NCBI RefSeq assembly: GCF_001625015.1
Contig: NZ_LVWJ02000014.1
Coordinates: 1,488,001 to 1,552,000, forward strand
Length of the DNA: 64,000 nt
DNA from: Lewinella sp. 4G2
GTDB lineage: Bacteria; Bacteroidota; Bacteroidia; Chitinophagales; Saprospiraceae
Reading direction: 5' to 3'
Position numbers and translations under genes: made by a program. The notes beneath the pieces were generated by a model. It saw only the letters and a list, made by a program, of their open reading frames with translations, had not been told where the DNA came from and did no database searches. Shown piece after piece: positions 16,393 to 64,000 of the stretch. Each line of letters begins with the position of its first letter. Positions within the stretch are counted from its first letter, which is position 1.

Positions 16393-16611
16393 TTAGGCCG
16401 CCAATGGCTCAATATCAAACCCGGCTTCGCGGACGTTGGCCATGATCGCGGCCTCCTCCGCACTGCCCTCCACGCTGAGGACCTTACGTGGATCCTCCAC
16501 ATCTACCCTCCAGATGGTGACGCCGGCGACCTCGTCCAAAAAGGAGGTGACGGTGCGGACGCAGGAGCTGCAGTTGATGTTGGTGGTAAAGTGCTGGATC
16601 TTCTTAGCCAT
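16393..16611 (-). CDS. Heavy-metal-associated (HMA) domain protein
   Basis: The 72-residue product is a single HMA (CopZ/MerP-like) domain. TTNINCSSCVRTVTSFLDEV gives the CxxC metal pair in the first loop, and SVEGSAEEAAIMANVREAGF completes the ferredoxin-like fold. It likely binds Cu(I) or a similar soft metal in the cytosol. No metal-transport ATPase is seen next to it; it sits upstream of the ThuA gene, separated by about 120 bases that contain one copy of the dispersed 18-bp repeat. Start at 16611 gives the usual short N-terminus. Confidence 0.8.
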   Translation of the reverse strand: MAKKIQHFTTNINCSSCVRTVTSFLDEVAGVTIWRVDVEDPRKVLSVEGSAEEAAIMANVREAGFDIEPLAA

Positions 16612-16758
16612 GTTGGTTTTGCTTGCTGAGCGGTAAACGCCACCGACTTGAAAAGAGTTAAAGCGGCGGGGCGCGGTGGAGTGACCTTAACCACTAATTA
16701 GCATTCAGATAGTGGCCGTTTCGCCCAACAAAAGCGCCGCCGCCGGGCTTTTGATGCC

Positions 16759-17580
16759 ATGAATATCCGCCTCGTCCGCCAGGAAGACCTCAACAAACAA
16801 CTGTATAATTCGTGCGTCCATTTCGCGACGAACGGTAGCATCTACGGCTACGATTGGTTCCTGAACGCGACGGCGCGCGAGTGGGACGTGCTGGTGGAGG
16901 GCGACGACTGGGTTTCCGTAATGCCGCTGCCCCGCCGTAAAAATTGGTTCGGGCGTATCTACCTGGAGCAACCCCGCCTGGTGCCGGAACTGGCCGTTTA
17001 CACCGTCCGGGCCATGAGCCAAAAACGGATTCAGGCCTTTTGGGACGCCATCCCCGCCGAATACCGCGGCGGCGGGCTGACGGTAGAACCCGCCTCCGTC
17101 CCCGCCGATCAGGGCCGCTTCGAAGTCAAAACCGCCACCGGAACGGTACTGCTGCTGGACCAACCCTACGAGGACATCATCGGTGACTTTTCGCCCACCT
17201 ACCGCGAAGGCCTGCTGCGCGCAGAAGACGCCGGCCTACGCCCAACCGGCAGCTTCAAACCAGAAACCTTCGCGGACCTCTGGTTAAAGGTGAACGGCAA
17301 ATCCGCTGACAACGAATGGACCTACCACGCCATGCTACGGATCATGTACCAGGTCCTACACCGCTCCTGGGGCAATACCCAAGCCGTTGCTGATGCCGAC
17401 GGGAACATCCTGGCCGCCGTCTTTATCGTGTATTCCCACAACCGTATTTTCCCGCTCTACAAGGTGGAAACCACGGCGGGCAAGCAGGCGGGTGCGCTGG
17501 CTTACTTGTGGGATAATTTGCTGAAGGGACACGCGGAAAGGAGTTTGAAGATTAAGCGGGAGGAGGTGTTTAGTCTATAG
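16759..17580 (+). CDS. GNAT/FemAB-like acyltransferase, probably 3'-truncated
   Basis: The 273-residue protein starts MNIRLVRQEDLNKQLYNSC and contains IYGYDWFLNATAREWDVL, the form of an uncharacterised Bacteroidota family with a FemAB/GNAT double fold. Members as I know them are about 300-320 residues and carry, after a stretch like YLWDNLLKGHAERSL, a conserved end of the type DFEGS...RFYxxFGA. Here that end is absent. After HAERSL the frame runs through ten unrelated residues and stops in a tandem TAGTC/CTGCAGTC tract at 17572-17604. So the gene seems cut by the repeat cluster that follows. It may still be partly functional, but loss of the last beta-strand region makes that doubtful. Confidence 0.6.
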   Translation: MNIRLVRQEDLNKQLYNSCVHFATNGSIYGYDWFLNATAREWDVLVEGDDWVSVMPLPRRKNWFGRIYLEQPRLVPELAVYTVRAMSQKRIQAFWDAIPAEYRGGGLTVEPASVPADQGRFEVKTATGTVLLLDQPYEDIIGDFSPTYREGLLRAEDAGLRPTGSFKPETFADLWLKVNGKSADNEWTYHAMLRIMYQVLHRSWGNTQAVADADGNILAAVFIVYSHNRIFPLYKVETTAGKQAGALAYLWDNLLKGHAERSLKIKREEVFSL

Positions 17581-17819
17581 TCTATAGTCTGCAGTCTGCA
17601 GTCATGAATTCCCTGGGAATAGGTTCTTGGAGCGGTCCCCAATCCGAGCGTAGCGACTATTGGGGATTCTCCAAGCGGCCGGGTCTGACCAGCAGCCGGG
17701 GCGACACCTTCGGTTAACCCCAGGCTACCAAGTTTACCCCTTCGGGGCATCGCGTCTTCAGCAGCCGGGGCGAAACCTTCGGTTAACCCCGGGCTACTAG
17801 GTTTACCCCTTCGGGGCAA
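17572..17819. repeat. Intergenic hairpin-repeat cluster (two 59-bp units)
   Basis: Two near-identical 59-base units lie at 17691-17749 and 17760-17818. Each contains AGCAGCCGGGGCGA, ACCTTCGGTTAACCCC and ends TTTACCCCTTCGGGGCA, with a CCCC-TTCG-GGGG hairpin. They are preceded by a TAGTCTA/CTGCAGTC tandem tract at 17572-17604. Related units lie at 35015-35071 and 35141-35197, so this is a dispersed intergenic repeat family. Short frames read across them are not genes. Confidence 0.75.
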
Positions 17820-17828
17820 GGAGTTAGA

Positions 17829-18560
17829 TCAGCCGTATAATTCCGCCACTACCTGGTTGGCTTCGTAGCCCATTTCTTTGAGGGTGGCTACGGCTTCGTC
17901 TACCATGACGTTCCAGCCGCAGAGGTAGAATTTTAGCTGGTTAGCCGGTTTCGGGTAGAGGGTTTTGTAGACCTCATGGACGTACCCCCGGGAGGTGGCC
18001 ATTGTCTTCGTGGCGGCTACGTCTTCGCGGCTGGCGGCTACGGAGTAGGTGAAATTGTCGTGCTCGGCGGCCATGGCTTCGAACTCTTCGCGGTAGAGGA
18101 TGTCCGCCGCCGTACGGCAGCCGAAGATGAGGTGGAAATTGACGTTCTCAGCGGCCAGCCGCTCCTGGAGCATCGCGCGGAAGGGGGCGACGCCGGTGCC
18201 GGTGCAGACCATCACGATATCGTTCTTCAGCGGGCCGGGGGGGAGGGTGAAGACGCCACCGGGGTCCTTACTCTTCACTTCAGTGCCCACTTCGGCTTCT
18301 TCGAATAGCCAGGTCGTTCCCTTCCCGCCGGGCAGGTGGACGATGCAGAGTTCGGCTTCGTTACTCCCGTCCGGCGCCGCGGCGATGGAGTAGCTGCGCC
18401 AGCCGTCCCGGCGGCGTTCGCTGATGGGCAGTTCGAGGGTGAGGAACTGGCCGGGTTTATAGTCTAGCCGCTCGTGGTGGGGCAGGCGGATCCAGAAGGA
18501 GCGGACGGTGGGGGAGCGCTGCTGGATACGGGTGATGGTGGCGGGGTTCCATTTTGGCAT
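17829..18560 (-). CDS. Ferredoxin/flavodoxin-NAD(P)H reductase family protein
   Basis: The 243-residue protein has the two-domain plan of the ferredoxin-NADP reductase superfamily. The FAD domain shows RSYSIAAAPDG, the flavin-binding RxYS motif, after YKPGQFLTLELP. The NAD(P) domain shows VMVCTGTGVAPFRAMLQERL, then LIFGCRTAADILYREE, and ends with a FYLCGWNVMVDE motif. It moves electrons between a pyridine nucleotide and a protein or flavin acceptor in the cytosol; no iron-sulphur domain is attached. It lies 78 bases downstream of the GHMP kinase gene and is probably cotranscribed with it. Partner unknown. Confidence 0.85.
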   Translation of the reverse strand: MPKWNPATITRIQQRSPTVRSFWIRLPHHERLDYKPGQFLTLELPISERRRDGWRSYSIAAAPDGSNEAELCIVHLPGGKGTTWLFEEAEVGTEVKSKDPGGVFTLPPGPLKNDIVMVCTGTGVAPFRAMLQERLAAENVNFHLIFGCRTAADILYREEFEAMAAEHDNFTYSVAASREDVAATKTMATSRGYVHEVYKTLYPKPANQLKFYLCGWNVMVDEAVATLKEMGYEANQVVAELYG

Positions 18561-56406: not shown

Positions 56407-56677
56407 TTGTGGGGGGAAGGTAGGGCTCGCTCGCTTTAGTGGATTTTTTCTTGCTTTATCAACGTCTTTACACCATAAACTTCCTACAGATATTGGCATA
56501 GTGCTTGAGCTGAAATCTACGTCTTCGCCCGCTACAGATGGGGCCCAGCGGTAGAGGAGTAACGAGAGCCCAAGCTGGCCGAGTTTCGGTTGGAGGGCGT
56601 GAGGCTATGCATGCTTGGGCAACCTGGGTAGCATATATATCGTTATTTTTAGGATCTTCAAACCAATACCTACAGCG

Positions 56678-56947
56678 ATGGATACGACGGAAAAAAGAAA
56701 TCACGCACGTGAGTTGATCGGCAAGCTGGACGATGAGTTCTTCACCGCAATCTACACGCTGATGGAATCTCACGTACGCCAGGTGGAAGACCGGGTGCTG
56801 GGTTATACGGCGGGAGGTGATCCGGTAAAGGTGGGCGAGTTCTTGGCACAGGCTGACGAGCAAGTACAGCGGGCAAAGGCCGGTGAAGGCCTCAGCGTTG
56901 ACGAACTAAGAAAGCGATCCGACGCATGGCTGGAACGTACACGGTAA
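56678..56947 (+). CDS. Antitoxin of a ParDE/RelE-like pair
   Basis: Start at ATG 56678 gives 89 residues, mostly helical (RELIGKLDDEFFTAIYTLME) with an acidic, Trp-containing end (SVDELRKRSDAWLER). The middle LGYTAGGDPVKVGEFLAQAD resembles small Bacteroidota antitoxins that precede ParE-like toxins. The toxin starts 22 bases before its stop, a common coupling. The DNA-binding mode is not clear from the sequence. Confidence 0.75.
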   Translation: MDTTEKRNHARELIGKLDDEFFTAIYTLMESHVRQVEDRVLGYTAGGDPVKVGEFLAQADEQVQRAKAGEGLSVDELRKRSDAWLERTR

Positions 56948-57255
56948 CCGTTACGCCGTCCGCAATCGCGGACTTACAGGAAGCACTTAATTACATTGCC
57001 GAAAACCAGTCGCTAACTAGTGCGAATAGCATTCAGGACGAAATCCTGAATGCTATTGAGCGTTTGGAAAAGATGCCGGAATCTCACCCGCCGGTACGAG
57101 AGACCCACGACGTAGTTGGCACGAAATACCGACGCATTATTGCCGGAAATTATCGCATCATCTACCAAGTGGATGAGCTCCGCCCGGAGGTGTTCGTGAT
57201 CAGAATTTTGCACGTAAAGCGAGGGCCGGACTTCGTACGTGGGGCGCTTCTGTAA
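56926..57255 (+). CDS. RelE/ParE-family toxin
   Basis: The 109-residue protein has the RelE/ParE fold pattern. YTVTVTPSAIADLQEALNYI is strand-helix, NSIQDEILNAIERLEKMPES is the second helix, and YRRIIAGNYRIIYQVDEL is the three-strand sheet. VFVIRILHVKRGPDF follows. The YRIIYQV segment is the core of this family. It likely inhibits translation or gyrase; the subgroup cannot be told. The pair lies beside the defence-related region on the right. Confidence 0.85.
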   Translation: MAGTYTVTVTPSAIADLQEALNYIAENQSLTSANSIQDEILNAIERLEKMPESHPPVRETHDVVGTKYRRIIAGNYRIIYQVDELRPEVFVIRILHVKRGPDFVRGALL

Positions 57256-57995: not shown

Positions 57996-59009
57996 ATGCC
58001 CACCAACAAACAAGCCACTATCCGCTACCACGCTTTGGATGACTGCTTCGCCAACCCCGGACGCCGCTTCGATATTAACGCTTTGATAGAAGCCTGTAAC
58101 CAAGCCATCGAAGAGCATACCGGCCGGGCCGATGGCGTCAAGCGCCGCCAAGTGTATAGTGACATCACCTTCATGGAAAGCGACGCTGGCTGGTCCATTC
58201 CTCTGGAGCGTTATAAGGACGGCCGCCGCACCTTCTTCCGTTACACCGATCCTTCCTTTTCCATCCGTGGACGCGGTGTTAACCAGGCCGAGGTTGAGCA
58301 GATTGCCGCCACCCTAGCCATACTCGCGCGCTATCAGGGCCTTCCTCAGTTTGAGTGGTTGGAAGAGATTCAAGTACGCATCCAGGATGCCTTCAACACC
58401 AACGCCTCCGCCGATCCAGTAGTCTCTTTTCAGTACAACCCCCACCTCCACGGTCTTCGCTACTTCCAACCCCTCTTCAACGCCATCACTCGTAAGCAGG
58501 CATTGGCCATAACCTACCAAAGCTTCCAGGAAGCTGCCCCGACTGAATTTACCTTCCATGCCTGGCACCTCAAGCAGTTCAACAACCGCTGGTTCGCACT
58601 TGGCCAGAAACAAGGCACCCTAGGACTTACGACCCTGGCCCTGGACCGCATCCAGACATTAGATTCAGTCGAGGAGGAATATCAACCAAATACCTCCATA
58701 GACTTTGCCGACTACTTTGACGACATCATCGGCGTTTCCTTCCTTCAGGACGCTACCTTAACCACGATTCAACTAAAAGCTGCCGCAGACCTCTGGCCCT
58801 ACATCAACAGCAAACCCATTCACCCCAGCCAAAAGGTGCTCGACCGCCATCCCTCCGGCGAAGTAAGCTTTCAGCTCAAACTGTTCCCTAATTACGAACT
58901 CACCGCCGTGCTCCTCTCCTTCGGGCCCCGCATTGAAGTATTGGTCCCTGAATCCTTGCGTAATCACGTGGCCAAACTTTACCAGCAAGGCTACCACCTC
59001 TACCAATAA
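57996..59009 (+). CDS. WYL-domain transcriptional regulator
   Basis: The 337-residue protein has an N-terminal helix-turn-helix region (YHALDDCFANPGRRFDINAL, VKRRQVYSDITFMESD) and a WYL domain. The WYL core is recognisable in RKQALAITYQSF, HAWHLKQFNNRWFALGQKQG and TTLALDRIQTLDSVEEEYQP. A WCX-like C-terminal extension (RHPSGEVSFQLKLFPNYELT, SFGPRIEVLVPESLRNHVAK) follows. WYL proteins are ligand-sensing repressors or activators and many control defence loci (for example BREX- or CBASS-linked regulators). It is the first gene of the island, with the methyltransferase-kinase gene 168 bases downstream. Confidence 0.88.
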   Translation: MPTNKQATIRYHALDDCFANPGRRFDINALIEACNQAIEEHTGRADGVKRRQVYSDITFMESDAGWSIPLERYKDGRRTFFRYTDPSFSIRGRGVNQAEVEQIAATLAILARYQGLPQFEWLEEIQVRIQDAFNTNASADPVVSFQYNPHLHGLRYFQPLFNAITRKQALAITYQSFQEAAPTEFTFHAWHLKQFNNRWFALGQKQGTLGLTTLALDRIQTLDSVEEEYQPNTSIDFADYFDDIIGVSFLQDATLTTIQLKAAADLWPYINSKPIHPSQKVLDRHPSGEVSFQLKLFPNYELTAVLLSFGPRIEVLVPESLRNHVAKLYQQGYHLYQ

Positions 59010-59138: not shown

Positions 59139-59155
59139 GTGCACAAACGTTGCAC
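59139..59155 (+). promoter_or_regulatory. Operator-like palindrome before the methyltransferase-kinase gene
   Basis: GTGCA (59139-59143) and TGCAC (59151-59155) face each other over seven bases, directly before the TACATTTG box at 59159-59166. It is a candidate site for the WYL regulator; this is inference. Confidence 0.4.
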
Positions 59156-59177: not shown

Positions 59178-61712
59178 ATGAATGAATCGGACATTAACCT
59201 GTACCTCGATCAATACGACGATGCTAGCGTAAGGGACGCTATGCAACTCTACAGAGGTACACTAAATTTTTCGGAGGTAAGTAGCACCGCCGCACTGCTA
59301 CATGTACTAATGTTGCTAGCGTTAAAGCGTTATGGATACTTGTCCGATACGCAGCCCGAAACTACTCTAAGTGAAGTTATAAAGGCTGGAAAACGTAAGG
59401 GACTCCCTTACTGGGATGTGTTTGAAAGCGTAGAAACTAGAAGGAAATTACAACCGGACCATCACCTGAATCTGATCACAGAGGAAGTTTTAGCCAGCTT
59501 ACACTCGCTTTATACTGAAAGTACGAGTGATCACTTTCCCGCTTTTTTCGAGGAAATGCTACGTCTGATGTCAGAGCGACAGTACGAACTAGCCAGACAC
59601 TACACCGGTGAAGGAGGTACTTCCTTACTGACCTACGTAGTTGATCTACCTGAATACCCCAGAGTGTATAACCCATTCGCGGGGCTTGCCTCTATTGCTC
59701 TTGATCTTCCAAAAGGTGCTACATATCTGGGCCAAGAGACCAATGGTCTGGCATATGATATCGCGCAACTACGGTTACTCGCTCACGATAAATATTCTGA
59801 AGGCAGATGTCTACTGGAACAAGTAGATAGCACAGTTGCTACGCCCGATTATAAGCAATTTGACTTAGTAGTTGCTGCCCCCCCATTTAAAGCGAGGCTA
59901 GCCGATAATACAGAAGAGTTTAAAGAATATCGAACCCTAGAGAACTGGTTTATCGGTGAAGGAATCAAGCTGTTAGCTCCCAAGGGTAAGCTAGTCGCAC
60001 TAGTTCGCTATGGTTTTCTATTCGGCAATGGTTCGGAGAAACGTCTCCGTAAAAAACTGGTCGATCAAGATCTCATCGAAACAATTGTATCAGTCCCTAC
60101 TGGTATGATTAACGGTACTGCAATAAAGTCAGCTATCGTTGTAATCAATCCCACCAAAATTTTAGCTGGTAAGATTAAGATGGTATCACCTACGTCCGTC
60201 GATGGCGTAGATGGATCTCCCGTACTGATGGAGAATGACCTAGAGACTATCCAGCTTCTTACTCACTTAAACGAGGATAGTGATATTACACTACCCAACG
60301 TTCGCATAATCACCAACGAGGTCGTTCGCGAAGAAGAATACGATTTAAGCACTGAGCGCTACCAACTACGAGACGTTCGAGGTACGGCTTTAGGCGATGT
60401 ACTTACCATATTTAAGGGTAAAAAAATCGGTAGTGAAGGAGGTGAACCAATCTTTACCATTAGGGATTTACTGCCCGAAGAAGATCAGAAATATAAGATC
60501 GAAGGAACGGTCGCGCGCCCTACGATTAAGAAGAATCGTTCGCGAAAGTCTCGACCAACTACCTTCGAGATTGATCGTTCAGCACTACTGATCGCCACCG
60601 TTGGTAAAAGATTGAAGCCCACCTATTATAGCCACCGTCACGGAACAGATCCATTGTCTATCGCACCTCAGGTAAAAGCATTCCGTATCGATCGTGATCA
60701 GGTCGACGCTGCATACTTAGTACACCAACTAAGGGGTAAGGAGGTTCAGCGTCAATTGAGTGCTTACCAAAGAGGGAATGCAATCTCACATCTAAGCGTG
60801 AAGGATTTTCTGCGAATTAAAATTCACCTACCATCGCTTTCCGAGCAGAAAACCATTGTGCATGCAATACAAGAGTCCGAAGATGAACTGCAACAACTTC
60901 GGCGTCAGGTTACTGATTTGGAGCGACAACTTGAAGTTGTAGAAAATACCCGCTTCGCTGAACTAAAGCATACCCTGGGTAGGCCTACTCAAAATATCCT
61001 TTCAACGGCGGAGGTGATTATCGAGTATCTTGATGGGCTTGGAAAAGAAGGTATACGACTTAACCAACAATACGCTGATTTCTACGAACAGGCGGCTACT
61101 CTAACTGATGATCTCGCTTCAATCGTCAAAGACGTTGATTTTATTAGCACTATGCTTGATCGCGGGGAAAATGGTCTTCAAGTTGAGAAATATCCACTAA
61201 TGTTCTTTACACCGCTAAACGATGTAGTGAGCCTTATTAATGATCTCAAATCACGAGATTGTAAGTTCAAGCTCATTTCACAAATAGAAAACGATGCATC
61301 TTGGAGAAGGAAATACGTACTTCACATTAACTTAGATTTGCTGCGAGTTATGTTCGACAACCTCATAACCAATGCAGATAAGCATGGCTTCGACAATTTC
61401 TTGCCGAGTAACTTAATGACTGTCGATGCTGCCATTGTTGATAACAAGCTCATACTCGATATCCGCAATAACGGAAAGCCCTTTCCACCTAAATTCGGTC
61501 AAGAACAGTTCATTCAAGAATTCAAGACCACCGACTCATCTATAGGACAGGGCATAGGGGGTGCCCACATCAATAGGATCGCTAACTACCTAGGATGTAG
61601 TGACTGGACAGTTACCTCGAACCACACCGCAGCTTTCCCTGTCGCCTTTCACTTTTCATTCCCGGTAATTGAACTTTCAGAATCAGATATCTCAACACAA
61701 TATGACATATAA
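59178..61712 (+). CDS. Degenerate type I DNA methyltransferase - HsdS-like domain - GHKL histidine-kinase fusion
   Basis: From ATG 59178 the product has 844 residues. Residues about 1-380 follow the HsdM plan, with TSLLTYVVDLPEYPRVYNPF, then AGLASIALDL where NPPF-type enzymes have DPCCGSGG. The catalytic motif IV reads VVAAPPFKA: Ala234 replaces the usual Asn/Asp before PPF, and motif I has lost its second Gly. Residues about 400-590 are one HsdS-type target-recognition unit (GTALGDVLTIFKGKKIG; IHLPSLSEQKTIVHAI) ending in a coiled coil. Then comes a kinase-like end: ELKHTLGRPTQNILSTAEVI (His598), DNLITNADKHGF (N box from Asp727), LDIRNNGKPF (G1) and GQGIGGAHIN (G2, 790-799). It overlaps the next gene. 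Inferred role: senses a DNA site or its methylation and signals by phosphotransfer. Confidence 0.85.
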   Translation: MNESDINLYLDQYDDASVRDAMQLYRGTLNFSEVSSTAALLHVLMLLALKRYGYLSDTQPETTLSEVIKAGKRKGLPYWDVFESVETRRKLQPDHHLNLITEEVLASLHSLYTESTSDHFPAFFEEMLRLMSERQYELARHYTGEGGTSLLTYVVDLPEYPRVYNPFAGLASIALDLPKGATYLGQETNGLAYDIAQLRLLAHDKYSEGRCLLEQVDSTVATPDYKQFDLVVAAPPFKARLADNTEEFKEYRTLENWFIGEGIKLLAPKGKLVALVRYGFLFGNGSEKRLRKKLVDQDLIETIVSVPTGMINGTAIKSAIVVINPTKILAGKIKMVSPTSVDGVDGSPVLMENDLETIQLLTHLNEDSDITLPNVRIITNEVVREEEYDLSTERYQLRDVRGTALGDVLTIFKGKKIGSEGGEPIFTIRDLLPEEDQKYKIEGTVARPTIKKNRSRKSRPTTFEIDRSALLIATVGKRLKPTYYSHRHGTDPLSIAPQVKAFRIDRDQVDAAYLVHQLRGKEVQRQLSAYQRGNAISHLSVKDFLRIKIHLPSLSEQKTIVHAIQESEDELQQLRRQVTDLERQLEVVENTRFAELKHTLGRPTQNILSTAEVIIEYLDGLGKEGIRLNQQYADFYEQAATLTDDLASIVKDVDFISTMLDRGENGLQVEKYPLMFFTPLNDVVSLINDLKSRDCKFKLISQIENDASWRRKYVLHINLDLLRVMFDNLITNADKHGFDNFLPSNLMTVDAAIVDNKLILDIRNNGKPFPPKFGQEQFIQEFKTTDSSIGQGIGGAHINRIANYLGCSDWTVTSNHTAAFPVAFHFSFPVIELSESDISTQYDI

Positions 61713-62649
61713 TCTACCACAGGTACTCTGGATCGACGATGAGTACGAGACACTTAAAGCTACCCGTAACCGTGCCAAGAATTTCGGCCTACGACTAGTC
61801 CCCTTCAAGTCACTAGAATCTGGCATGGCGGAGCTTGAAAGCAACTATGATCACTACGAAGCAGTCCTCCTTGACGCTAAGTTCTACGAAAAAGATAGTG
61901 ATGTTGCGACCACTGAGGATACTGAATACGCCTTTGCAGCGCAACGGCGTATCGACCGACTGTCCGGTAAGAAGCAATTCGAGGTGTTTGTCTTAACGGG
62001 ACAGAGTAAAGATGCTGCTACCATCGATAACAGCTTTAAGAAAGCCTTCAAAGATCGTATCTACGTAAAGGGATCTAAGGAGGATAACGATCGACTATTC
62101 ACTAACTTAAAAGAGGCGGTTAACAGGCAACGATCTGTTCAGCTTCGCCAGAGTTATCCTGCAGCGTTTGCTGTCTGTAACGACGGCTATATTAGCGAAG
62201 ACATTGAACCAATTGTCATGGATTTAATCCGAGACTTAGAAGATAATTGTCTTACCGTTAGACACCTCACCGAAATTCGCAAAGTCCTGGAAGCACTCAA
62301 TCAAGCTATAGCTGGCTTTTATCTTCTACCCGACGATTTGGCTGCTCAAGAAACCTGCACTATAAATAGAACCGCTAGGTACTTGTCTGGACAGTGGACA
62401 AACACAGGAAAGAAAACTAGATCTTATCAAATTGATAGTACTTTTCCAACAGAAGTGGGTGTACTACTAGCCAGTCTAGTAAAAACTACCCAGGTAGGTT
62501 CTCACTACCTATACCTCGACGGGCACATCCGAGACACCAAATCCAGCTACTGGCTAAAAGCATCCGTTTACCAGCTACTAGCTATCCTGGAGTGGTTTAA
62601 ACCCTATATGGATAGCGAACCGGAAAGAAAATACGAGAGTCGTAAATAG
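61702..62649 (+). CDS. Response-regulator-like protein with C-terminal helical domain
   Basis: The gene starts at ATG 61702, 11 bases before the stop of the kinase fusion, so translation is coupled. The 315-residue protein has an N-terminal receiver domain with all expected residues: QVLWIDDEYETLKAT (Asp12, Asp13), EAVLLDAKFYEKDSD (phospho-acceptor Asp58), FEVFVLTGQSKDA (Thr99) and IYVKGSKEDNDRL (Lys123). Between sheet strands 3 and 4 the domain holds extra residues (VATTEDTEYAFAAQR). Residues about 140-315 are helical with no DNA-binding motif I recognise (DLIRDLEDNCLTVRHLTEIR; SYWLKASVYQLLAILEWF). Such a non-HTH output may bind a protein. Inference: phosphorylation by its fused-kinase partner controls a defence function. 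Confidence 0.8.
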   Translation: MTYNLPQVLWIDDEYETLKATRNRAKNFGLRLVPFKSLESGMAELESNYDHYEAVLLDAKFYEKDSDVATTEDTEYAFAAQRRIDRLSGKKQFEVFVLTGQSKDAATIDNSFKKAFKDRIYVKGSKEDNDRLFTNLKEAVNRQRSVQLRQSYPAAFAVCNDGYISEDIEPIVMDLIRDLEDNCLTVRHLTEIRKVLEALNQAIAGFYLLPDDLAAQETCTINRTARYLSGQWTNTGKKTRSYQIDSTFPTEVGVLLASLVKTTQVGSHYLYLDGHIRDTKSSYWLKASVYQLLAILEWFKPYMDSEPERKYESRK

Positions 62650-62850: not shown

Positions 62851-64000
62851 ATGGCCAAAGCAAAAACCAAAAAACAAGAAGACCCCATAGAAAAGAAACT
62901 ATGGGCCGCAGCCGATAAGCTGCGCAAAAACATCGACGCGGCAGAATACAAGCACGTCGTGTTGGGCCTGGTCTTTCTCCGCTACATTTCCGAAGCCTTC
63001 GAGGCCGTGCACGAACGCTTGCTCGCCGAAGTGGACCAGGGCGCTGACCCTGAAGACCAGGACGAGTACCTCGCCAAAAATGTCTTCTTCGTCCCAAAGA
63101 AAGCCCGCTGGTCTACCATCCGTAACCAGGCTAAGTCGCCGACCATCGGCACTACGCTGGATGGCGCTATGGACGCTATCGAAAAGCAGAACCCACAGCT
63201 GAAGTCGGTACTCCCTAAAGTGTACGCCCGGCAGAACCTGGACGCCACCGTACTCGGCGAGCTGGTCGACATGTTCACCAACATCAATTTGACGAGCACG
63301 CAGGAGCGGAGCGCGGACGTACTCGGCCACATCTTCGAATACTTTCTCGGTGAGTTCGCCCTGGCCGAAGGCAAACAGGGTGGGCAGTTCTACACGCCCA
63401 GGTCGGTAGTAGAACTACTGGTAGAGATGCTGGAACCAAAAAAGGGCCGCATCTATGACCCGTGCTGCGGCTCCGGCGGTATGTTCGTCCAGTCCCAGAA
63501 GTTCGTGGATGGCCACACGGAAGATATTAGCATCTACGGCCAGGAATCCAACCTGACCACCTGGCGACTAGCTAAGATGAACCTCGCCATCCGCGGCATC
63601 GATTCCTCTAATCTGAAGTGGAATTCGGAAGGCTCTTTCCTCAACGACGCCCATCCCGACTTGCGCGCCGATTACGTCATCGCCAACCCGCCTTTCAACG
63701 TCTCCGACTGGTCCGGCGAAGCACTGCAGGAAGACGCCCGTTGGAAGTTCGGCCCGCCCCCACCCGCCGGCAACGCCAATTACGCCTGGCTACAACACTT
63801 CCTCTACCACCTGGCGCCCAAAGGTCAGGTAGGCGTAGTCCTAGCCAAAGGTGCTCTCACCTCCAACTCCAGCGGCGAGGGCGAGATCCGCAAAGCCCTC
63901 ATCGAGGCCGGCAAGATCGACTGCATCGTCAACCTCCCCGGCAAGATCTTCCTCAATACTCAGATCCCCGCCTCCCTCTGGTTCATGAGTAACGACCGTA
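62851..64000 (+). CDS. hsdM: Type I restriction-modification DNA methyltransferase (HsdM), 3' end outside the window
   Basis: At ATG 62851 the frame opens and runs beyond base 64000; 383 residues are seen. The N-terminal helical domain ([40 protein letters not shown]) is the HsdM N-domain. The methyltransferase core then shows [34 protein letters not shown] (intact AdoMet motif I), [34 protein letters not shown] (intact motif IV) and [15 protein letters not shown]. It should be an active adenine-N6 methylase working with HsdS and HsdR encoded further right. Its high GC contrasts with the AT-rich kinase/receiver pair before it. Confidence 0.95.

Follow-up and report, generated by a model that had tools for sequence, protein, structure and literature searches.

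The 64,000-nucleotide stretch of the Lewinella sp. 4G2 genome analyzed here (contig NZ_LVWJ02000014.1, positions 1,488,001 to 1,552,000; hereafter the window) encodes a methyltransferase/specificity/kinase fusion, referred to below as the sensor, together with a receiver-like protein in the overlapping next gene. Judged by sequence comparison and structure modeling, this is a real, recurrent two-component-like pair that is often linked to restriction-modification (RM) systems and has a pseudo-restriction input. Restriction-modification is usually viewed as working without signaling, and a two-component system with a restriction-type recognition unit for reading DNA is not known to us. The pair very likely functions as a relay, and a role in defense is likely. 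The reading that we favor, with moderate confidence, is that of a soluble two-component relay serving DNA-based defense, in which a degenerate type I methyltransferase/half-specificity (M/half-S) unit acts as the input.

The sensor open reading frame has a GTG opening at 59139 and an ATG at 59178 and ends at 61712, giving 844 residues from the ATG, and the receiver frame, with a TTG opening at 61669 and an ATG at 61702, ends at 62649; the two genes overlap by 11 bases. The initial annotation placed an HsdM-like domain, a single HsdS-type unit and a kinase end in one protein, and the Pfam matches bear this order out, with N6_Mtase at residues 142–396 (E 2.6e-22), Methylase_S at 509–572 (5e-6) and HATPase_c at 720–812 (3e-5), the last of which was found at E 0.01 or better in 14 of 15 fusion members. 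A profile built from 33 fusions matched solved structures of HsdM (1.6e-63) and HsdS (5e-16) as well as the sensor kinases 2c2a (2e-15, positions 576–823) and 5c93 (3.8e-14, positions 582–835). Both kinase matches span the dimerization and ATP domains, which supports the kinase ATP-binding fold expected of this end of the protein. The recognition domain was additionally matched by the PADLOC specificity-subunit model (2e-14). When the AlphaFold2 model of the fusion (mean predicted local distance difference test score, pLDDT, 79) was searched with Foldseek, the single-chain methyltransferase 7eew, solved with the DNA mimic Ocr, ranked first, followed by type I HsdMs and related methyltransferases. 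His598 sits in the predicted dimerization helix (residues 554–620) of this model, and His598, Asn732, Asn764, Gly766, Gly792 and Gly794 are invariant in all 33 aligned fusions.

The assignment of the partner as a receiver rests on its model, a profile and its phosphotransfer residues, which together uphold the initial annotation; Pfam detected no receiver (Response_reg) in the window protein. The model (mean pLDDT 86) shows a (beta-alpha)5 fold followed by an all-helical domain, and a 29-member receiver profile matches solved receivers, the best at 2e-5. The residue numbers given earlier, His598 for the sensor and Asp12, Asp13, Asp58, Thr99 and Lys123 for the receiver counted from the ATG at 61702, are correct. 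Asp13, Asp58 and Lys123 are invariant in all 29 members, whereas at position 12 Asp occurs in 26 members and Glu in the other 3, and at position 99 Thr occurs in 22 and Ser in 7. The parts of both proteins and the genes flanking them are located in Table 1.

Table 1. Positions in the window of the parts of the sensor and receiver and of the adjoining genes
Feature	Position	Strand	Basis or remark
WYL/WCX-domain regulator gene	57996..59009	+	Pfam WYL 5e-10, WCX 2e-8; upstream of the sensor/receiver pair
Fusion residues 1-118, helical N-terminal region (hypervariable among RM-linked fusions)	59178..59531	+	
Fusion residues 119-395, HsdM-like methyltransferase core	59532..60362	+	N6_Mtase 2.6e-22
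Fusion motif IV, reading A-P-P-F	59877-59888	+	
Fusion residues 396-548, single HsdS-type target recognition domain	60363..60821	+	Methylase_S 5e-6
Fusion residues 554-620, one unbroken predicted helix from HsdS-type coiled coil into kinase dimerization helix	60837..61037	+	AlphaFold2
His598 codon	60969-60971	+	Inside helix 554-620
Fusion residues 680-832, GHKL ATP-binding domain (Asn732; Asn764/Gly766; Gly792/Gly794)	61215..61673	+	HATPase_c 3e-5
Receiver domain, residues 1-141 (Asp12, Asp13, Asp58, Thr99, Lys123)	61702..62124	+	Model, invariants, profile
Receiver protein residues 144-305, all-helical output domain	62131..62616	+	Model; weakly DUF4145/HEPN-like
HsdM of the adjoining type I RM operon, extending past the window end	62851..64000	+	HsdM_N 1e-28, N6_Mtase 8e-86

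Relatives were sought in 199 genomes of the window's family, 395 of its phylum, a plasmid collection and a GTDB contig collection; the family, phylum and class samples overlap in a few genomes, and the genome searches scored few candidates per genome (2, 4, up to 11), so that absence from them is not proof. Of the full or near-full fusions that these searches gave, 34 distinct loci were examined, the window's included and two of them (L028 and L097) cut by a contig end, and later five more (L119, L159, L160, L162 and L163), and all 39 protein sequences are different. L042, which lies on the same contig as L023, was dropped, as were L035, L037, L038 and L041, which are of the HsdM type without a kinase end; alignments A4 and A5 do not include L040, and the output-domain profile does not include L097. 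In each of the 38 loci other than the window's, the match to the fusion profile extends through the kinase end, which rules out a chance or assembly artifact as the origin of the fusion. The scan of GTDB contigs with two peptide patterns contributed at least eight fusions among at least 20 confirmed loci. Named carriers are Weeksella, Winogradskyella, Arenibacter, Formosa, Flavobacterium, Kaistella, Cloacibacterium, a Saprospiraceae metagenome-assembled genome and Myroides plasmids; Myroides belongs to the Bacteroidota by its record, and the other named genera do as well.

The same gene pair recurs in other neighborhoods: the receiver gene adjoins the fusion in 30 of the 34 loci and in all five later ones (35/39). 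Of the 199 family genomes, 16 carry the fusion at E 1e-75 or better, and exactly the same 16 carry the receiver at E 1e-12 or better. Four sensors that seemed to be orphans (L026, L027, L033 and L034) were rejected as such, their receivers being located elsewhere in the same genomes. The phylum sample holds the receiver in 13 of 395 genomes, namely the 12 with a full fusion and genome G262, and the class sample in 9 of 257, where seven receivers adjoin a fusion, one (G746) lies by a kinase fragment at a contig end and one (G708) has no visible kinase. Viral contigs gave 47 pattern hits, and no relative is encoded by any of them. Separately, an unverified fecal record labeled 'Bacteriophage sp.' (MT835483.1, locus L119) contains WYL, sensor, receiver, HsdM, a specificity-like gene and HsdR, and may represent a mobile element or host DNA.

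Pairwise identities indicate that the kinase and the receiver travel as a unit. With the reader and N-terminal parts removed, identities of the kinase part and the receiver domain are correlated at a partial r of 0.84 (p 0.0005, 2000 permutations, 26 loci; L028, L031 and L097 were left out), although this test, like the others based on permutation or ranking of pairwise identities, assumes that related loci can be exchanged and is no more than indicative. The methyltransferase part is similarly coupled to the recognition part (0.75). Beyond the link carried by the receiver domain, no tie was seen between the output half of the receiver and the kinase (partial r 0.03, p 0.34). Individual loci illustrate the exchange. 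L024 and L049 share 69% identity in the recognition unit, 29% in the kinase and 32% in the receiver, and for L024 and L043 the two reader parts are 69% and 76% identical, with the same 29% and 32% in kinase and receiver; L023 is 81% identical to L049 in the kinase and 94% in the receiver, and to L043 85% and 95%, respectively. Kinase and receiver are thus inherited together and the reader half is swapped, which is how a cognate pair should behave. The cassette can also change its RM partner, since L023 and L049 are only 31% alike in HsdM and 27% in HsdS despite receivers that are 94% identical; this is not always so, as L046 and L047, with receivers 85% alike, retain HsdMs that are 57% alike.

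The reader half is mostly a pseudo-enzyme, as would suit a reader rather than a writer. Motif IV has the form NPP[FYW] in 6 of 33 fusions (L024, L043, L044, L045, L047 and L096), or in 7 of 33 if Ser is allowed at the first place (L046, S-P-P-F), and is non-canonical in the other 27, with N-P-P-L in three and forms such as H-F-P-F, D-L-T-L and N-F-P-F elsewhere. The window protein likewise departs from the N-P-P-F/Y/W of an active N6-adenine methyltransferase. Because motif IV is degenerate in the fusions whereas the neighboring HsdMs carry NPP[FY] in 17 of 17 cases, catalysis is seemingly not under selection in most members. Gly169 of motif I is nearly invariant, and L096, L100 and L101 have no recognizable motif I in the alignment. 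The sensor input looks like a worn-down copy of the DNA-reading parts of a restriction enzyme. The recognition unit was also considered as a fast-evolving specificity element, a behavior that was not seen: across 59 fusion pairs with a core identity of at least 40%, the ratio of recognition-unit to core conservation averages 0.93. It is more variable than the core in the L026–L033 group, and among L023, L024, L043 and L049 it is 67–81% identical while their HsdS proteins, present in three of the four, are 21–27% identical. The fastest part of the RM-linked group is instead the N-terminal 118 residues, with an N-terminal/core ratio of 0.53 (47 pairs) compared with 0.74 for true HsdMs (38 pairs) and 0.90 for other fusions (12 pairs); between L023 and L043 this region is 28% identical and the other parts 72–95%.

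Genomic context links the pair to RM systems in about half of the loci, as hsdM follows the receiver directly or one gene later in 16 of the 34 and 4 of the five later loci (20/39). A WYL relative was found by BLAST in 19 of the 34 loci, not always adjacent, and one also stands beside the L119 fusion. Both the window genome and a Myroides plasmid have the order WYL-sensor-receiver-HsdM-HsdS-...-HsdR. Beyond the window, the same locus (L021) continues with the rest of HsdM (509 aa), HsdS (389 aa; Methylase_S 1e-10), a GmrSD_N protein (765 aa; DUF262-type, 4e-31) and HsdR (1074 aa; T1RH-like_C 8e-117, HSDR_N 2e-45), and no internal stop interrupts any frame from the WYL gene through HsdR. The GmrSD_N gene, of a type IV restriction family, lies between HsdS and HsdR at L021 8568-10865, and window positions 56615-57255, just ahead of the operon, contain a gene for a ParE-type toxin (Pfam 2e-16) and, upstream of it, a small gene. 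An RM operon at L044 carries a reverse transcriptase gene between HsdS and HsdR (16490-18025). At L100 (11498-17307), the fusion-receiver pair is followed by an AAA_15 ATPase, an MIT_C/phospholipase-D-like protein and a UvrD-type helicase, and no RM system follows.

Two loci place the family in CRISPR surroundings. In G262 (L135 1-11188), a type III-A CRISPR operon encoding Csm1 to Csm5 includes a kinase and receiver, flanked on one side by csm5 and on the other by a TIGR02221 gene and then a Cas6-like gene (below the NCBIfam cut-off). This kinase, of 763 residues, matches the ATP domain of the family (4e-24) and contains a recognition-unit-like piece (1e-4), with no methyltransferase match and no match to the dimerization-helix profile. 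In G708 (L164 3-4543), a 5.4-kb contig has the receiver immediately before cas6 and an RT-Cas1 fusion, with a fragment lacking any Pfam match on the other side of the receiver. Given both RM and CRISPR contexts, the receiver family is linked to nucleic-acid defense of more than one kind.

The output domain of the receiver, with Arg193, Glu197 and His268 each present in 28 of 29 members, may with reserve be called HEPN-like. Its profile aligns with an alignment of 13 DUF4145 proteins (HHalign P 0.0023, probability 13%), with Arg193, Glu197 and His268 falling on matching DUF4145 positions, and nine control pairings, among them six of the same profile, gave P values of 0.15 to 0.71. DUF4145 is described as a member of the HEPN superfamily in the relevant part of Anantharaman et al. 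2013 (PMC3710099), and no DUF4145 was found in the window's own genome. The Pfam scan recognized no DNA-binding transcription domain or helix-turn-helix in the receiver protein, nor did the output domain match any Pfam family among the 12 receivers scanned. A further C-terminal extension of about 80–90 residues is present in 13 of 29 receivers, and one of the 12 scanned has the S1/cold-shock domain of TOTE conflict systems (Pfam). In the L097 receiver, a Schlafen AlbA_2 domain (6e-15) replaces the output domain, and AAA_5 and McrBC genes follow (L097 2438-6686).

From these features, we infer phosphotransfer, DNA engagement, dimerization, an output and a role in defense, which may be arranged as follows. 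The degenerate type I M/half-S unit would serve as the input, its reader half being engaged by DNA or by another ligand of the DNA-binding surface. M-half-S proteins pair through their coiled coils, and because the predicted coiled-coil helix runs unbroken into the dimerization helix, such engagement could be passed along the helix to the kinase. The kinase would then phosphorylate His598 and subsequently Asp58 of the partner receiver, and the phosphorylated receiver would alter the state of its helical, HEPN-like output domain, which could provide an auxiliary defense output or switch the neighboring RM system.

Several observations weigh against this relay. The kinase end had been described as complete-looking, and His598, Asn732, Gly766, Gly792 and Gly794 are indeed invariant, but in the G1 box all 33 fusions have Asn764; canonical kinases have Asp at that position. 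The residue after His598 is Thr in the window protein and acidic in only 10 of 33 fusions, so that kinase activity may be weak or altered. Additionally, the HATPase_c match of the window protein (24.8 bits) falls just under the Pfam cut-off of 26.4, the sensor and receiver genes are apart in 4 of the 16 family genomes (G021, G056, G076 and G127), and 12 of the 34 loci have neither an hsdM nor a WYL label, one of which (L028) is a 4.7-kb contig. On the input side, the six fusions with NPP[FYW] could methylate; the recognition unit does not favor the HsdS encoded at the same locus over those encoded elsewhere (permutation p 0.54, 14 loci), and neither the N-terminal part nor the core prefers the local HsdM (p 0.73 and 0.90; 15 loci). 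On the output side, the HEPN-like assignment is one weak comparison (the probability of 13% given above), and the HEPN RNase motif Rx4-6H occurs in 1 of 28 rows with the conserved His (L039) and is missing from the window protein.

What the input detects separates two alternative explanations. The initial annotation had suggested that the sensor reports on the sequence or methylation state of DNA, and part of this stands, as the input is of the restriction type, the pair is RM-linked and motif IV is lost. A sensor that scans for unmodified sites of the partner RM system and reports failed self-marking or foreign DNA would be expected to adjoin RM operons, as it does in about half of the loci, and to combine a degenerate motif IV with a nearly invariant motif I Gly169, as in a non-methylating binder. 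However, the recognition unit is no closer to its own HsdS than to others, BLAST at E 0.01 returned no own-locus pair, and the sensor as a reader of its own RM system's site was accordingly set aside as unsupported by either comparison. Because the recognition unit is on average about as conserved as the core and does not track HsdS, a reader of partner sites is disfavored and in our view unlikely; the ligand could instead be a constant feature of DNA, a partner protein or an inhibitor from a phage. The last of these suits a guard in which the pseudo M/half-S lures the Ocr- or ArdA-like DNA mimics that phages use against restriction, so that a phage blocking the restriction enzymes also binds the bait and the kinase-receiver pair triggers a backup response. 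The non-canonical motif IV, the similarity of the recognition unit within L023, L024, L043 and L049 irrespective of their local HsdS, the hypervariable N-terminal region and a cassette that rides with unrelated RM systems would all fit such a decoy, as would the best fold match being a methyltransferase complexed with Ocr. Nevertheless, that match reflects the methyltransferase fold rather than Ocr binding, other close pairs such as L046 and L047 share related RM genes, the recognition unit outside the named group is no more conserved than the core, and the CRISPR-linked kinase has no methyltransferase match; we consider that such a guard has only a small chance of being correct.

Two further explanations concern what the pair does rather than what it detects. 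The relay could be an internal controller that times the action or production of the adjacent HsdR, with the WYL protein as transcription factor, for example by delaying restriction after the operon enters a new host. The gene order shared by the window genome and the Myroides plasmid favors this, as does the precedent of the WYL regulators BrxR and CapW, which control BREX and CBASS operons according to the section of PMC12255303 concerned. Pairs without labeled RM or WYL genes, pairs in CRISPR loci and the lack of a recognized helix-turn-helix in the receiver speak against it, and we would not expect it to account for the family. Alternatively, no signaling may take place at all, the GHKL end being an ATPase that remodels a DNA-bound complex, in the manner suggested for RM-adjacent proteins of the paraMORC type, and the receiver-like protein a scaffold. 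The Asn at G1 and the variable residue after His598 would be in keeping with this, and GHKL ATPases near RM systems are known, as the pertinent part of PMC8011034 relates. Set against the invariant His598 in a predicted dimerization helix, the phosphotransfer residues of the receiver and the co-inheritance of kinase and receiver, a non-signaling role is highly improbable. The soluble relay in DNA-based defense remains the preferred reading.

More tentatively, we propose that Bacteroidota use the kinase-receiver pair as a portable cassette that can be coupled to various machines of nucleic-acid surveillance, to type I RM via a pseudo-methyltransferase reader and to CRISPR-Cas via a different input, with an HEPN-like output and a phosphorelay alarm raised on recognition or sabotage. 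Should this speculative proposal prove correct, a common phosphorelay would serve RM systems and at least one CRISPR system, signaling recognition by the first-line defense or its inhibition. Some bacteria may thus wire their DNA-based immune systems into an internal alarm circuit, and the question of whether a restriction system tells the cell of foreign DNA or of an inhibitor becomes testable with two purified proteins.

Comparison with known systems places the pair beside, rather than within, several of them. No MADS, BREX or other PADLOC system scored over curated cut-offs, the only matches being local ones to methyltransferase and specificity models; MADS models stayed below NCBIfam cut-offs, and the receiver had no PADLOC match. 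The fold and order of the reader half are those of type I HsdM/HsdS and of single-chain M-half-S methyltransferases (e.g., 7eew), from which the fusion differs in its non-canonical motif IV (27 of 33), its single recognition unit and its C-terminal kinase. Detocs, a two-component anti-phage system, reportedly combines a TPR-type sensor with a purine nucleoside phosphorylase output; it shares the two-component logic for phage defense, and no Pfam match to Detocs-type TPR or phosphorylase domains was obtained in the window proteins. The 'HATPase, REC' design of DefensePredictor (PMC13092281) was considered and taken as different, the portion of text describing it naming a purine phosphorylase domain. 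Among the DUF4145/HEPN proteins of RM and CRISPR systems, as covered in part by PMC3710099, the Arg, Glu and His anchors line up with those of the receiver output, although the match is weak and 27 of 28 receiver rows are without the Rx4-6H motif.

The initial annotation knew of no described system of this design. This holds for the methyltransferase/specificity/kinase fusion itself, which searches of open-licence papers did not turn up (subscription journals and preprints being outside that scope), but an RM-associated two-component-like pair was published in 2021. HEF_HK (PF19191) and Response_reg_2 (PF19192) form a two-component-like pair near RM systems (Bellieny-Rabelo et al. 2021, PMC8011034), with 91.6% RM linkage in 644 regions, and, as far as the relevant sections of that paper describe it, this is the closest published design. 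Neither Pfam family was matched by the window proteins (E 1), 12 receivers (E 0.1) or 15 sensors (E 0.01); a profile comparison of the receiver with four Response_reg_2 proteins gave P 1e-4 for the receiver part and P 0.26, that is, not comparable, for the output part. Their input is, in those sections, mostly an N-terminal HATPase_c_3 and their neighbors are mostly type II RM systems and C5 methylases, which sets them apart from the present fusion. Both designs nevertheless place a soluble GHKL kinase-like protein beside a divergent receiver-like protein in linkage with RM systems.

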